DNA from: a virus
Strand: one strand, 5' to 3'
Virus record (IMG/VR): IMGVR_UViG_3300031951_000964
Span: 1-27,899 of that record
Length of the DNA: 27,899 nucleotides
A program made the translations under genes and the position numbers. The notes beneath the pieces were generated by a model. It saw only the letters and a program-made list of their open reading frames with translations. It did no database searches and was not told the origin of the DNA. How positions within the stretch are numbered: position 1 is the first letter of the stretch; each line of letters begins with the position of its first letter. Below, piece after piece: positions 4,756-18,627 of the stretch.

Positions 4756-6930
4756 ATGGACAACCTAGTAAATTCATTAGTTTCTCAAACAATAGCTACT
4801 GGCGGTACTGCTGGAAGTGCTAATGCAAATGTCATTGATAAACTAACCAATCAAATTTTGGCAACAAGTGACCCAACAAAATGGGCTGGTCAAGGCAAAG
4901 GTTCAGCGCAAGCTAATGCGGCTGATATGGCAAAAATTATTGCCGATACAGGCGTAACTGACATTAGCCAGTTTGGACAAATAGAAAAAACAGTTTTTGA
5001 TGAAAATGGTAATAAATCAATTGAAAAAACTTATGGTAATAAAGTAACTGGTCAAGAAGTAGGAAGCACTTATGGTGAACGTCAAACTGGAAATGCCTTT
5101 GGTGGAACATTTGACGGTAAAGGTAACACAGGTTATCGAGTAGAGTTTGATGCTTCTGGTAAACCTATTTTTTACACAACTGGTGCGTCAAGTTCTGATG
5201 TGCCTAGTTGGGTAAAACCTGCTTTAATTCTTGGCGGTGCTTATCTTGGATTAAATGCCGCGGGTTTGTTGGGTGGCGGTGCATCAGTAGCGGGATCAGC
5301 GTTTGAATTAGCTAACGCTGGTGCTGGTGCTTTTGGTGGCGGTTCTACGTTAGGAACACTTGGCGCATTAGGAAATGCAAGCGCTATGGGCGCTTTAGGT
5401 GGCGAGGCGGCACTAGGAACAGGTTTGACAGCGGCTGGCGGTGGCACAGCGGGTCTTGGCGGTGCAATGAGCGCTTTAGGCGGTGAAGCCGCTTTAGGTT
5501 CTGGTTTAACTGCCGCTGGAACGGGCGCTGGAACAATGAGCGCTTTAGGTGGTCAAGCGGCATTAGGTACGGGCGTAGGCGCTGGCGTTGGTGGTATGGC
5601 CGCGGGCAATTCTTTGCTTGGCAATGCGGCATTAGGATCAACTTTAGCTAATACAGCCACAGGATTAACTGGTACGGCATTAAATAGTTTAGGTGGTGCT
5701 GGCGGTTCATTGTTAAATGCTGGTGCGGGTGCTGGTTCTGCTTTAGGAACAACTTTAGGTCAAGGTTTGGCTTTAAATGCTCTTGGTAGTGGTCTTGGTG
5801 CTGTTGCAAATCAATCTGGCATTTCTAATGCTAGGGATTTGATTAGCCAATACGGTAACACGGCAAACACTCAACTAAATACCGCTTACACAGACGCTAA
5901 AGCCTTAAATGCGGCAAATAACACAGCGTTGGCTAACAACTACACAAATTTAAACACTAGCCTAAATAATAATTTGGCTAATCAAGTTGGCGCGTACAAC
6001 ACAGCCAATACCAACATTAACGCAAACGCAAACAACCAATTAGGTTTGTTGGCAAATACTTATCAAGGTCAAAAAGACCAAGCCGCGGCAAATGCAAATG
6101 CTTTAAATGCAAATTATGCAAATTCCCGTGGTGATTTATATGACATTTACAATCAACAAGTTGGAATTCAACAACCTTATCAAGATGTTGGTCAAGCTGG
6201 TTCGCAAGGTTTAATTAACAACCAAGGTTACTTGACCCGTCAGTTTGGCGCAGGGGATTTGAATGAACAGTTAGCCCCTAACTACGCATTCCAACTGCAA
6301 CAAGGTCAAATGGCCAACCAACGTGCCGCCAACATGGGTGGTGGCAGTTTGGGCGGTAATGCTTTGAGAGGATTGCAAGACTACACGCAAAACTATGCCT
6401 CTGGTGCATACCAAAATGCGTTTAACAACTTCAACACACAACGTCAAAACATTTACAGCACATTGTCTGGAATGGCCAACATCGGCACAACTTCAGGCGG
6501 TCAATTGGCAAGCCTTGGCAATACCTTGGGTGGTAATTTAGGTTCATTGTCCAATACTCTTGGAAGCAACCTTACAAGCAACACAGGCAACCTATTGGGT
6601 GCTGGAAATGCTTACGGCTCTAATACTTCAAGTGTGACAAATAATTTGAATAATGTGTTGTCATCTAACCTTGGACAAATGCAAGGCGCTTACAACCAGT
6701 ATGGAAGCAATATAACTGGCGCTTCTAATACTTATGGTGGAAACCTTACAACAGGCGCAGGGCAAGGAATCAATGCGGCTAATTTATACGGTGCTAATTC
6801 TGCTAATCTTGCCACAGGCATAGGTTCAGCATTGGCAGGGAATGCTTCTGCTAGTGGCGCAAATACTGCAACTGCTTTAGGCAATCTTGGCAATCTTGCA
6901 TTAGTAGGCTCTATGCTTAAAGCGACATAA
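4756..6930 (+). CDS. Gly/Ala/Asn-rich ejection-type (internal virion) protein
   Basis: A 724-residue low-complexity protein. Residues 155-350 are rich in Gly and Ala with a hydrophobic start (VKPALILGGAYLGLNAAG) and tandem units beginning MGALGGEAALG, MSALGGEAALG and MSALGGQAALG. Residues 360-480 are Asn/Ala-rich helical heptad-like sequence, and the C-terminus again has SLGNTLGGNLGSLSNTLG-type repeats. It is followed by two more large helical proteins, as the gp7/gp20/gp16 ejection set of P22 is. I infer that it leaves the head with the DNA and may enter the host envelope; sequence homology to gp7 itself is not visible. Confidence 0.6.
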   Translation: MDNLVNSLVSQTIATGGTAGSANANVIDKLTNQILATSDPTKWAGQGKGSAQANAADMAKIIADTGVTDISQFGQIEKTVFDENGNKSIEKTYGNKVTGQEVGSTYGERQTGNAFGGTFDGKGNTGYRVEFDASGKPIFYTTGASSSDVPSWVKPALILGGAYLGLNAAGLLGGGASVAGSAFELANAGAGAFGGGSTLGTLGALGNASAMGALGGEAALGTGLTAAGGGTAGLGGAMSALGGEAALGSGLTAAGTGAGTMSALGGQAALGTGVGAGVGGMAAGNSLLGNAALGSTLANTATGLTGTALNSLGGAGGSLLNAGAGAGSALGTTLGQGLALNALGSGLGAVANQSGISNARDLISQYGNTANTQLNTAYTDAKALNAANNTALANNYTNLNTSLNNNLANQVGAYNTANTNINANANNQLGLLANTYQGQKDQAAANANALNANYANSRGDLYDIYNQQVGIQQPYQDVGQAGSQGLINNQGYLTRQFGAGDLNEQLAPNYAFQLQQGQMANQRAANMGGGSLGGNALRGLQDYTQNYASGAYQNAFNNFNTQRQNIYSTLSGMANIGTTSGGQLASLGNTLGGNLGSLSNTLGSNLTSNTGNLLGAGNAYGSNTSSVTNNLNNVLSSNLGQMQGAYNQYGSNITGASNTYGGNLTTGAGQGINAANLYGANSANLATGIGSALAGNASASGANTATALGNLGNLALVGSMLKAT
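5386..5607 (+). repeat. Tandem Gly/Ala coding repeats
   Basis: Three units starting at 5386, 5467 and 5536 encode MGALGGEAALGTGLTAAG, MSALGGEAALGSGLTAAG and MSALGGQAALGTGVGAG, about 23-27 residues each. DNA identity is high in the first 30 bases of each unit, so slippage or recombination is a likely origin. Confidence 0.8.
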
Positions 6931-16361: not shown

Positions 16362-16622
16362 TCAAGCAAACTTTTTGATAAATGCGTTTAGCTGGCGAAC
16401 TTGATCACGAGCAGACTTCTGAAATTCGTCACCGTTTTCGCCAATGTAATCTTCATTGTTTAAGTGACCAGCTTCATGGAAACAGCTAAGAATGTATTTA
16501 GCTTCATGCACAATTTGTGCGTCTGTGTAATCGTTGATTTCTTTTTTATCGTCTTGAGAAATTTGCTGTAGGTTGTTAGCTAATTCGTCAATTGACATTG
16601 CTGATTTGATGATTGAGCGCAT
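16362..16622 (-). CDS. Hypothetical early protein, 86 aa
   Basis: First gene after the 16623-16696 promoter/hairpin module, with AGAGGAAATCAAA before the ATG. The protein is helical and polar (SIDELANNLQQISQDD, IVHEAKYILSCFHEAGHL). HEAGH resembles the zinc protease motif HExxH only superficially: the Glu lies correctly but no protease scaffold is visible in 86 residues. Probably an early host-interaction or regulatory protein. Confidence 0.6.
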   Translation of the reverse strand: MRSIIKSAMSIDELANNLQQISQDDKKEINDYTDAQIVHEAKYILSCFHEAGHLNNEDYIGENGDEFQKSARDQVRQLNAFIKKFA

Positions 16623-16702
16623 TTTGATTTCCTCTAAAAAGACCCCATAAATTTAGGGCATGATGAATTATAAGTTATCTTATAAAGAAGTGTCAACACT
16701 TT
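16623..16702 (-). promoter_or_regulatory. Leader module 1: promoter, 5' hairpin and RBS
   Basis: Perfect -35 TTGACA (16696-16691) and -10 TATAAT (16672-16667) with 18 bases between. A 16-base hairpin CCCTA..TGGGG spans 16658-16643, beginning about where the transcript starts. Exactly 20 bases, including AGAGG, lie between hairpin and ATG. The -35 is at the centre of the palindrome AAGTGTcaACACTT (16688-16701), a likely operator. AT-rich sequence lies upstream (16703-16730). Confidence 0.75.
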
Positions 16703-16727: not shown

Positions 16728-16934
16728 TTAGAGAACTTCTGTTTCTTTTTTCATTGTTTCCCACTCTGTCAGACTGACAATTTTGTAGTCCTTGTGGAAC
16801 ACATGACCATGAGTGACATGGATAACAAACTTGATTGCTTGCTTTAATGTCAATGGAATGGTTTTGACTGACCATGTGTTGTCATAGTCATTGAACTGAA
16901 TTACTAACTGGTTTTTTGTCCATGATGTTGCCAT
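16728..16934 (-). CDS. Hypothetical early protein, 68 aa
   Basis: Own promoter/hairpin leader with AGGAG before the ATG. The sequence (SWTKNQLVIQFNDYDNTW, VKTIPLTLKQAIKFVIHV) suggests a small alpha/beta protein; no family recognised. It is a single-gene unit: the next gene downstream has its own promoter. The strong signals suggest high early expression. Confidence 0.6.
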   Translation of the reverse strand: MATSWTKNQLVIQFNDYDNTWSVKTIPLTLKQAIKFVIHVTHGHVFHKDYKIVSLTEWETMKKETEVL

Positions 16935-17007
16935 TTTGATTTCTCCTAAAAAGACCCCAAGAAGTTAGGGCATGGGTGAATTATAAGCGGTCTTATGGGT
17001 AAGTCAA
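16935..17007 (-). promoter_or_regulatory. Leader module 2: promoter, 5' hairpin and RBS
   Basis: -35 TTGACT (17007-17002), -10 TATAAT (16985-16980), spacing 16. The hairpin at 16970-16955 (CCCTAA, loop CTTC, TTGGGG) differs in sequence from the other two copies but pairs equally well with a U-G pair. It is again 20 bases from the start codon. Upstream, a dyad TTAGG-6-CCTAA (17019-17034) and a larger interrupted inverted repeat (16997-17031) overlap the -35. Confidence 0.75.
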
Positions 17008-17018
17008 CAATTATTTTG

Positions 17019-17034
17019 TTAGGACTTACCCTAA
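17019..17034. promoter_or_regulatory. Candidate operator dyad upstream of module 2
   Basis: TTAGG, six bases, CCTAA: a perfect 5-bp inverted repeat 11 bases upstream of the -35. A matching dyad (TAGGG-5-CCCTA) is found at the same distance from module 3, so the pair probably binds one regulator, for example the Cro-like protein at 17650. Confidence 0.45.
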
Positions 17035-17036
17035 TA

Positions 17037-17057: not shown

Positions 17058-17514
17058 ATTTAGCAATTTGAACTAATGGTTGACCGTGATATTTGTTTGC
17101 AATTTCGGTCATTGTTTTAATGAAATCTTCGCCCATTCTTGCGCGATTGCGATAAGCCCATTCCATAGAATTGCGGGCATTGTATTGTTGTGAAGCGGTT
17201 GCTTGTTGATATGGAATTTCTTTGCGATAAGCTGTCACAACATGAGTAAATGCTGTTTCAGGAGTAATTTCGCCTGACTTAACTTTGTCAGCCTTGGCAA
17301 TCAATTCTGGAATTTCTGCGTTAATTTGAGCAATGATTTCGTCTGTAGTTGTGCGGCTAACTTGGACAGGTGCATAGTTTCTGCCTGAACAAACACCTGA
17401 AAACCAACCTTGTTTGACTGTGTAACCATGCTTAGACATCATGCCGTTAACGATTGCTTGTTCACGACCGCAACATTGGCAGATACCGCGTGTTTGAATT
17501 TTTACTGTTTGCAT
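17056..17514 (-). CDS. Zinc-ribbon-like early protein, 152 aa
   Basis: Residues 8-50 contain ICQCCGRE (Cys12, 14, 15), KHGYTVKQGW and FSGVCSGRNY (Cys42), a pattern I know from small phage and bacterial proteins of unknown function. The rest is helical with a basic C-terminal half. It is transcribed from leader module 3, divergent from the Cro-like gene, the position of an early regulator such as lambda N; that analogy is positional only. Confidence 0.65.
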   Translation of the reverse strand: MQTVKIQTRGICQCCGREQAIVNGMMSKHGYTVKQGWFSGVCSGRNYAPVQVSRTTTDEIIAQINAEIPELIAKADKVKSGEITPETAFTHVVTAYRKEIPYQQATASQQYNARNSMEWAYRNRARMGEDFIKTMTEIANKYHGQPLVQIAK

Positions 17515-17587
17515 TTTGTTTCCTTTTTAAAAGACCCCGTTTGTTTGGGGCATGAGTGAATTATAAGGCAACTTATGCAAAGGTCAA
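17515..17587 (-). promoter_or_regulatory. Leader module 3: promoter, 5' hairpin and RBS
   Basis: -35 TTGACC (17587-17582), -10 TATAAT (17565-17560), spacing 16. The hairpin CCCC-8-GGGG is at 17550-17535, then 20 bases with AAAGGAAAC to the ATG at 17514. Hairpin length (16) and hairpin-to-ATG distance (20) are identical in all three modules. It faces left, away from the Cro-like gene. Confidence 0.75.
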
Positions 17588-17598
17588 CAATTATTTTG

Positions 17599-17613
17599 TA
17601 GGGACAAACCCTA
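17599..17613. promoter_or_regulatory. Candidate operator dyad between divergent early promoters
   Basis: TAGGG, five bases, CCCTA. It lies 11 bases upstream of the module 3 -35 and about 37-50 bases before the predicted Cro-like transcript start, so a bound protein could affect both directions. The flank ACAATTATTTTGT is also shared with module 2. Confidence 0.5.
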
Positions 17614-17636
17614 ATGTTGCTTTTATGCAAATAGTA

Positions 17637-17650
17637 TATAATTTGGCTTA
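17637..17650 (+). promoter_or_regulatory. Promoter of the Cro-like gene, likely leaderless transcript
   Basis: A consensus TATAAT at 17637-17642 stands only seven bases before the ATG at 17650. No Shine-Dalgarno sequence lies between (TTGGCTT). A -35 is unclear: TTGCTT at 17617-17622 is 14 bases away. If the -10 is used, the transcript starts at or within a base of the AUG. Confidence 0.5.
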
Positions 17651-17808
17651 TGAATAAAGAAAAGTTTATTGCACTAGCTGGCTCACAGAGTGATCTAGCC
17701 AAACTATTAGGGATAAAGCAACCAGCTATTTCCCAATGGAAGGCTGTTCCTATTGCAAGAATTTGGCAATTAAAGTTGTTAAAACCAGAATGGTTTGACA
17801 AAGGTTAA
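17650..17808 (+). CDS. Cro-like HTH repressor, 52 aa
   Basis: The peptide holds a compact helix-turn-helix at residues 13-31 (QSDLAKLLGIKQPAISQWK), with the second helix AISQW typical of Cro/YdaS-type regulators. It ends LLKPEWFDKG. At 52 residues it is near the lower limit for Cro proteins (lambda Cro 66). It is divergent from the leftward early operon, with dyads between them. It likely represses one or both early promoters. No CI-like partner was found in the window. Confidence 0.8.
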   Translation: MNKEKFIALAGSQSDLAKLLGIKQPAISQWKAVPIARIWQLKLLKPEWFDKG

Positions 17809-17814
17809 AAAAAT

Positions 17815-18228
17815 ATGTTTATAATTAAATCGTCTGAGTGGCATCGGACGATGAAAGCAATTGAGAACCCCATAGATTTCTGTGTGGTCTTGCCTGACAA
17901 CAGGCGAACTTTTGATTGCTTTCAATCGTTTGTTGTTGCTCTCGCCAAGAGCCAAGACCACAGAGCAATTTATGGGGTTTTTTGCGTTTGGCGGCTGTGC
18001 AATGCGGTACGTCGGTGGTTGCATCTAGGGATACCCTGTTACACGAGCGAACTAAAGCAGGGGCGGTGGGCGAAGGATAGAGCCGAGTGGTTTGGACGTA
18101 AGTCTAAGAAGTCTGTCCTATGCGATGCGATGACATGGCTCCGAAGGGAAGTTATCCACAAGCAAAGCGATTGCTGTTTTAGTACGGTAAGGCTTTGCTT
18201 TGCTCAAACAATCACCAAAGGGAAGTAA
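17815..18228 (+). CDS. Doubtful 137-codon reading frame over structured RNA
   Basis: An open frame with AAAGG ten bases upstream of its ATG. The composition is odd (rich in Arg, Cys and Trp). The first half covers a near-perfect long inverted repeat, so similar peptides appear on both strands (CVVLPDNRR and IYGVF on plus, CSVVLALGE and IYGVL on minus). A T-run that could terminate transcription lies inside it. I consider the RNA reading more likely, but the second half (WAKDRAEWFGRKSKKSVL) could be coding. Confidence 0.3.
   Translation: MFIIKSSEWHRTMKAIENPIDFCVVLPDNRRTFDCFQSFVVALAKSQDHRAIYGVFCVWRLCNAVRRWLHLGIPCYTSELKQGRWAKDRAEWFGRKSKKSVLCDAMTWLRREVIHKQSDCCFSTVRLCFAQTITKGK
17829..17983 (+). 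ncRNA. Cloverleaf-like structured RNA ending in a T-run
   Basis: A 27-position stem pairs 17866-17892 with 17953-17979, with two mismatches and one G-U. Its 60-base interior carries three perfect 5-bp hairpins: GCCTG-ACAA-CAGGC (17892-17905), GATTG-CTTT-CAATC (17914-17927) and GCTCT-CGCCA-AGAGC (17938-17952). Six T follow the stem (17978-17983), so plus-strand transcription would end here. A separate hairpin ATCGTC-12-GACGAT precedes it (17829-17852). The location just behind cro is that of the tR1 terminator in lambdoid phages. No known RNA family was recognised; no folding or homology search was run. Confidence 0.6.
17984..18228 (+). other. Gap before replication gene with one consensus DnaA box
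   Basis: A 245-base stretch with no confident gene. It holds a perfect DnaA box TTATCCACA at 18152-18160, possible stems GAGCC/GGCTC (around 18082-18140) enclosing GGAC/GTCC, and the ribosome site AAAGGGAAG for the following gene. It may contain the phage origin or be the end of the doubtful reading frame described at 17815. Confidence 0.4.
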
Positions 18229-18627
18229 ATGCAAGACTTATTCGGTAATGAGATACCTGAACAACAAAAGAAAACAGACGAAGGGTTTGAGGAATTCTGG
18301 TCTGCTTACCCCAAGTGTTTTAGAAAAGGTGAAAAGGCATCTTGCAGAAAGAAATGGGCTGAGTCTTACTACTTTTCTCAGAAGCACATCATTCTGAAAC
18401 ACGTTCAATGGATGGCTACCACAGCGGCATGGTTGAAAGACAACGGGGCATTTATTCCAGCCCCCAAGGTCTATTTAAACCAACAGCGATGGGACGGTGC
18501 TGACGTTCCTGATTTAACGCCCAAACCCTTGATTGACCCCGCCTTGGCAAAGATAGAAGCTGACAGCAAAAAAGCCGCACCTATGCCAGAACATATCAGG
18601 GCAAGACTTGCAGAATTAAGGAAATGA
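18229..18627 (+). CDS. DnaT-like/phage replication initiation-type protein, 132 aa
   Basis: FEEFWSAYPKCFRKGEKASC and later NGAFIPAPKVYLNQQRWDGA are the pattern of short phage replication proteins related to the C-terminal part of O-like or DnaT-like proteins. These load host helicase or the primosome. No ATPase motif is present, so it is not the helicase. It is first in the rightward operon, after a gap with a DnaA box, which fits an initiation role. Good ribosome site. Confidence 0.65.
   Translation: MQDLFGNEIPEQQKKTDEGFEEFWSAYPKCFRKGEKASCRKKWAESYYFSQKHIILKHVQWMATTAAWLKDNGAFIPAPKVYLNQQRWDGADVPDLTPKPLIDPALAKIEADSKKAAPMPEHIRARLAELRK

Follow-up and report, generated by a model that had tools for sequence, protein, structure and literature searches.

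A pseudoknotted noncoding RNA between the Cro gene and the replication genes of uncultured lambdoid-like phages

Introduction

The put RNA of HK022 is about 70 nucleotides (nt) in length, forms two stem-loops, and exists in two copies, putL at +1 and putR about 270 nt into the PR transcript (PMC9378689). Each of the two early operons carries one copy, putR after cro and putL at its promoter, and the RNA acts on the polymerase that makes it, suppressing termination via the beta' zinc-binding domain of RNA polymerase. The C4 antisense RNA and the P4 CI RNA are small structured phage RNAs in a regulatory region that pair with nearby leader targets for immunity, while tR1/nutR of lambda lies between cro and the replication genes with a terminator-like end. 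Large ornate RNAs found in phages and bacteria, such as GOLLD, form another group with unassigned function; GOLLD is linked to phages and several times longer than the RNA described below. ToxI, the RNA of type III toxin-antitoxin systems, contains a pseudoknot and precedes a gene, with a terminator in between; it is built as a tandem repeat, and the gene downstream encodes a toxin nuclease.

Positions 17830-17983 of the window, i.e., the whole stretch of 27,899 nt of viral DNA analyzed (IMG/VR record IMGVR_UViG_3300031951_000964), are a genuine noncoding RNA gene with a predicted product of about 152 nt, designated RNA1. RNA1 is a structured phage RNA in an early operon like put, but is different from put with respect to its size, its four helices and pseudoknot, its U-tract end, and its single locus, so that put's size, layout, and two-copy arrangement are all lacking. 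It shares with C4 and P4 CI RNA the small size and the regulatory location, but has no such leader target within 4 kb, no Rfam match to C4 (RF01695), and no sign of a temperate phage background in 20 contigs, which are possibly incomplete. The location and the terminator-like end are those of tR1/nutR, from which RNA1 differs in that a promoter of its own is predicted and its tertiary fold covaries. As in the case of GOLLD, RNA1 is ornate, phage-associated, and of unassigned function, and gave no Rfam match; in contrast to ToxI it is a single unit without repeats, ahead of replication-side genes.

Results

Location of RNA1 and its gene neighborhood

The original prediction, made from the sequence of the window, was of a cloverleaf-like RNA from 17829 to 17983 at the site where lambdoid phages place tR1. 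The predicted start is near that of the element (about 17830-17832), with a promoter just upstream, and the tR1 position is borne out by the P22-type Cro gene on one side and the replication-initiation-like gene on the other, with RusA and NinB encoded further downstream (for all coordinates see Table 1). The Cro-like open reading frame (ORF) ends about 27 nt upstream of the P1 loop in 82 of 139 loci, the other loci showing further variants. In every locus read, RNA1 and the replication gene have the same orientation, and RNA1 is present in one copy per contig (17 of 17 contigs), the reverse-strand matches representing the same palindrome. No repeated unit was found within RNA1.

Table 1. Features identified in and around RNA1 (positions in the window)
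Feature	Position	Strand	Evidence or remark
P22-type Cro gene, upstream of RNA1	17650-17808	+	PF14549, E 2.4e-10
Predicted -35 box, TTGACA	17795-17800	+	sequence; overlaps cro 3' end, 19-nt spacer to -10; perfect TTGACA as best candidate in 44/120 relatives
Predicted -10 box, TATAAT	17820-17825	+	TATAAT in 90/120 relatives; predicted start ~17832 at P1 base
Hairpin P1	17830-17851 (17830-17837/17844-17851; loop GUGGCA 17838-17843)	+	AT/TA, CG/TA, GC/CG covariation; inner seven pairs 98-100% canonical
PK5, pseudoknot 5' strand (GAAAGCAAUU)	17853-17862	+	pairs with 17914-17923; 57 distinct pair sets among 121 copies
P2 5' arm, closing stem	17867-17892	+	both-side changes in 11/24 P2 pairs
P3 5' strand	17896-17907	+	pairs with 17926-17937; covariation at three pairs, offset clearly defined
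PK3, pseudoknot 3' strand (GAUUGCUUUC), inside P3 loop	17914-17923	+	pairs with PK5
P3 3' strand (~12-bp helix P3)	17926-17937	+	covariation
Hairpin P4 (GCUCU-CGCCA-AGAGC)	17938-17952	+	GCCA present in all P4 variants seen, adjoining bases vary
P2 3' arm	17953-17978	+	covariation with 5' arm
U tract, predicted intrinsic terminator	17978-17983	+	4-9 T directly after P2 in 121/121 copies
Second module (type a), structured and noncoding, extending to the replication gene, separate from RNA1	17984-18228	+	12/33 predicted pairs with both-side changes
Replication-initiation/primosomal-like gene, downstream	18229-18627	+	phrog_9474, E 9.9e-14

Relatives and database searches

A search of viral contigs with the downstream gene yielded 80 loci, most of which carried homologous upstream DNA. 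At least 119 contigs were identified by a sequence pattern set on two loops, and more were added by patterns in which either loop was set free. After removal of duplicates, 121 distinct copies, all from uncultured phages, were analyzed (at least 121 exist). Among INPHARED phages and PLSDB plasmids, no relative of RNA1 was found beyond short chance stretches, and among 84,980 prokaryote genomes none of the 67 pattern matches carried RNA1 features. A covariance-model search of 299 Polynucleobacter-family genomes gave one weak short match (28.9 bits over 63 bases; L296).

As the original prediction had supposed, RNA1 fits no catalogued RNA family: the search of Rfam 15 with the window and 12 related loci gave zero matches at or above the gathering score, and even with E values as high as 10 allowed, the sole match was to an unrelated CRISPR repeat, on the minus strand (18.3 bits against a threshold of 45). 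No earlier description of RNA1 was found in the open-access literature.

Secondary structure of RNA1

The segment folds with a free energy of -76.6 kcal/mol (z = -9.2) for 17820-17990 and of -73.9 kcal/mol (z = -9.1) for the trimmed segment 17827-17983, and none of 200 dinucleotide shuffles was equally stable, in agreement with the order that the original prediction had expected of the fold. The long stem on which that prediction was based was confirmed; its arms, 17866/17867-17892 and 17953-17978/17979, pair over 26-27 positions, two of them mismatched, with more helices in between and a TTTTTT run behind. As for the three perfect hairpins of 5 bp proposed inside this stem, GCTCT/AGAGC was present in 121 of 121 copies, which were mostly found by a pattern set on it, whereas GCCTG/CAGGC (31 of 121) and GATTG/CAATC (16 of 121) were not conserved. 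The cloverleaf layout also had to be abandoned, because the conserved fold includes hairpin P1 upstream of the stem, the P3 helix of about 12 bp, hairpin P4, and a pseudoknot that had been missed.

The covariation of P1 and P2 was strong, and that of P3 was detected at three pairs. At outer position 6 of P2, GC, AT, TA, and CG all occur among the relatives. When the whole structure was examined on an alignment of 69 sequences, both-side changes were found in 28 of 60 pairs, with 389 such cells; the shuffled controls gave a mean of 18.7 pairs and 108 cells (0 of 500 as high), and the structures slid by 1-3 columns gave 7-15 pairs and 30-89 cells. The original prediction had named the lack of compensatory changes in the stems of related phages as evidence against it; the compensatory changes in the relatives are overwhelming. 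The covariance model scored about 160 bits on the forward strand and about 38 bits on the reverse, the difference being due to G-U pairs. Since most relatives were gathered by sequence patterns, the conservation of the loops is in part imposed; the P1 loop GUGGCA was, however, retained also in the loci collected without requiring GUGGCA.

Pseudoknot between the 5' region and the P3 loop

The sequence of the 8-10-bp pseudoknot is almost wholly different between phages, and yet the pairing is retained. In 90% of the 121 copies all pairs over a length of 8 bp were canonical, as against a mean of 4.7% and a maximum of 11.6% upon 1000 re-deals of PK3 among the loci, and a test free of alignment gave a mean of 8.2 Watson-Crick pairs as against 4.0 after re-dealing. 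Each of the central positions showed three or four Watson-Crick pair types, 98-100% canonical. Because the copies are related by descent and most were collected by pattern, the number of sequences does not equal the number of events; the pseudoknot changes are so large and varied that the conclusion withstands both shared ancestry and sampling.

In the window, a linker of about 4 nt connects PK5 with the base of P2. With such a short linker, the pseudoknot should form only if P3 folds back along P2, and the added lengths of P3 (12 bp) and the pseudoknot (8-10 bp) would roughly equal the 26 positions of P2. In this folded-back geometry a UGGC/GCCA contact could arise between the loops of P1, GUGGCA, and P4, (C)GCCA; it is suggested by the invariance of both loops and not by covariation.

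Predicted promoter and terminator

A near-consensus sigma-70 promoter is predicted to belong to RNA1. At least five of six matches to the -10 box were found in 96% of the relatives as compared with 38% in the shuffled control. The distance from the -10 box to the first paired base of P1 is mostly 6 nt (61 copies) or 5 nt (22 copies), and from this spacing the base of P1 is predicted to be the transcription start. A general promoter scanner missed this promoter on account of its 19-nt spacer. The promoter was kept in two loci (L023 and L052) in which the upstream gene is not cro.

At the other end, a GC-rich stem followed by a U tract, the mark of an intrinsic terminator, is present in all 121 copies, and from this sequence termination is predicted. 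Between the RNA1 terminator and the replication genes of the window, the promoter scan found no sigma-70-like promoter. The original prediction held the element to be more ordered than a simple terminator, and the predicted promoter together with the pseudoknot indeed places RNA1 beyond a tR1-like terminator.

Coding test

An ORF of 137 amino acids (17815-18228) is open in the window, and could be read as a translated gene; alternatively, the element could be a plain intrinsic terminator. Among 119 relatives, however, 411 of 425 alignment gaps in the RNA1 region shift the frame, and the substitutions per codon position (0.145/0.198/0.128, as compared with 0.111/0.068/0.311 for the neighboring gene) show no third-position bias; nor was any PHROG match found for the ORF. 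The protein-coding reading was rejected on the basis of the frame and the codon positions, and a conserved protein across the region, which the original prediction had named as counter-evidence, did not appear. The plain terminator was likewise rejected, because the covarying pseudoknot, P1, P3, and P4 are not needed for one. Either version of this explanation is almost certainly wrong.

Antisense and lifestyle tests

The original prediction hinted at a structured immunity RNA like that of P4. Counted over 4 kb to either side, or as much of this as the contig provides, complementary 11-mers numbered 48 and 45 for the own locus and 49 and 52 for other loci, showing no excess. Neither tyrosine integrase (PF00589), resolvase-type recombinase (PF00239), nor S24 repressor (PF00717) was found in 20 related contigs (L107, L269, L103, and others; 33-56 kb, 17 with RNA1 and three without, and possibly incomplete), with the controls being positive. 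The phage group, with its Cro-like gene order, seems to differ from ordinary temperate phages. These two results make an immunity role unlikely, and the P4 hint was not upheld.

Three similar leader units on the minus strand (16620-16683, 16926-17035, and 17506-17615) precede leftward genes in the window, each with promoter-like sequence, a GCCCC/GGGG hairpin, a T run, and a ribosome site; one arm of the hairpin complements an arm of RNA1 P2. A 17-nt complement of the P2 arm in a left-operon leader (16637-16653) was considered as a target and rejected, because it is found in one of three leaders and the general test was flat.

Occupancy of the slot and the adjacent modules

A total of 71 loci, found via the replication gene independently of the RNA, contained enough upstream sequence for examination. 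The slot upstream of the replication gene was filled in all 71, by RNA1 in 45 and by a second RNA class in 26, and no locus carried neither; the search pattern for the second class was loose, and the sequences were also inspected. Because every one of these loci, collected without regard to the RNA, is filled by either class, the phage evidently needs an RNA in this slot.

The second class, found upstream of the replication gene in L015, L018, L025, L039, L068, L070, L078, and others, includes a -10 box and a terminator-like end with a U tract, and the loop of its 5' hairpin pairs with a segment further downstream. The loop pairs covary (GUGAGAA/UUCUCAC, GUAGGAA/UUCCUAC, GUGGAAA/UUUCCAC, GUGAAGG/CCUUCAC, and GUGGUAG/CUACCAC). 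The pairing of a 5' hairpin loop with an internal segment is the same plan as proposed for RNA1; the covariance model of RNA1 gave only 16-19 bits on the second class. One member, L071, looks recombinant in that its loop no longer matches the partner.

RNA1 or the second class is followed by modules of several quite different types (a, b, c, and d), for which no Rfam match was found at thresholds. As RNA1 occurs together with several of these types, it is not tied to one downstream module. The type-a module of the window lacks third-position bias (0.162/0.171/0.189 substitutions per codon position), by which coding-like frames noticed by eye in the corresponding module of L084 were rejected. 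A DnaA-box-like sequence, TTATCCACA, in the same module was dropped as well, because it is not conserved among the relatives of the module. Near the 3' end of type-a modules a short direct repeat was observed, at about 18144-18156 and 18214-18226 in the window and also in L269, L275, L087, and L288; its sequence differs between phages but the two copies are alike, such as TGGGTCA twice in L269.

Discussion

As a covarying noncoding RNA in a constant slot, with a predicted promoter and terminator, RNA1 is on balance probably a self-contained early small-RNA gene that acts by its shape. Transcription would start at the base of P1 from the predicted sigma-70 promoter at the end of cro, and the RNA of about 152 nt would fold into P1, P3, P4, and the closing stem P2, with the pseudoknot tying its 5' region to the loop of P3 and with the loops of P1 and P4 perhaps touching each other, and the transcript would be terminated by P2 and the U tract. 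The RNA would then act most likely in trans, probably on a host protein or machine in early infection. Action by shape is suggested because the helices of the pseudoknot and P1 vary freely in sequence and yet keep their pairing strictly, the loops GUGGCA and GCCA being fixed. Stand-alone action is suggested by the lack of a local antisense target and by the combination of RNA1 with different downstream modules.

The main rival is a role in cis, in which the pseudoknotted fold controls termination at P2 and the U tract of transcripts from the cro or RNA1 promoter, and thereby sets how strongly the replication genes and the second module are expressed. Such a role is built in, since the replication genes lie in cis to the terminator and the promoter scan of the window yielded no promoter in the interval separating them. 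The terminator-like end is located directly before the replication operon in every copy, RNA1 is always co-oriented with the replication gene in the loci read, and the second class at the same slot likewise ends with a U tract. The predicted transcript start is, however, the first base of the structure, leaving no room for a separate sensor, and the pseudoknot can form together with P2 instead of competing with it, no alternative antiterminator pairing being seen. We consider this attenuator unlikely, though it is to be taken seriously. The nascent RNA could instead bind its own RNA polymerase to make it resist downstream terminators, as HK022 put does; RNA1 follows cro as putR does and starts at +1 as putL does (PMC9378689), but is about 152 nt with a pseudoknot and a single copy in 17 of 17 contigs against the approximately 70 nt, two stem-loops, and two copies of put, itself ends with a U tract, and lacks the further copy that put would require in the left operon. 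A put-like antiterminator is improbable on these grounds.

Slightly less probable again is that RNA1 and the module at 17984-18228 are one larger RNA that is processed later. Only a few nucleotides separate the two, and both are structured and noncoding, but RNA1 is joined to different module types, such modules also follow the second class, and the conserved U tract stands between RNA1 and the module. An antisense immunity RNA, like P4 CI RNA or P1 C4 RNA, would agree with the small size of this phage RNA, its location in an early regulatory region, and its hypervariable helix. The hypervariable strands, however, pair with each other, and neither the complementary 11-mers within 4 kb nor the 20 contigs searched for integrase and S24 repressor speak for it, leaving this explanation very improbable. 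The stand-alone RNA remains our preferred reading.

RNA1 represents a well-supported addition to the RNA families, with a complete secondary structure and a pseudoknot, in uncultured lambdoid-like phages, at the location where early transcription enters the replication genes. As a tentative extension, a pseudoknotted RNA that acts in trans may be obligatory for these phages between Cro and the replication genes, drawn from two or more classes that can replace each other. It would represent a new type of phage effector that acts on a conserved host machine by its shape, with another structured RNA, likewise exchangeable, following it. The testable question raised is which host or phage component reads the fold of RNA1.

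In one locus, L139, a near-threshold match to int-alpA (RF02996; 35.5 bits, threshold 35.8) was observed at 5241-5314 on the plus strand, downstream of RNA1 and the second module.
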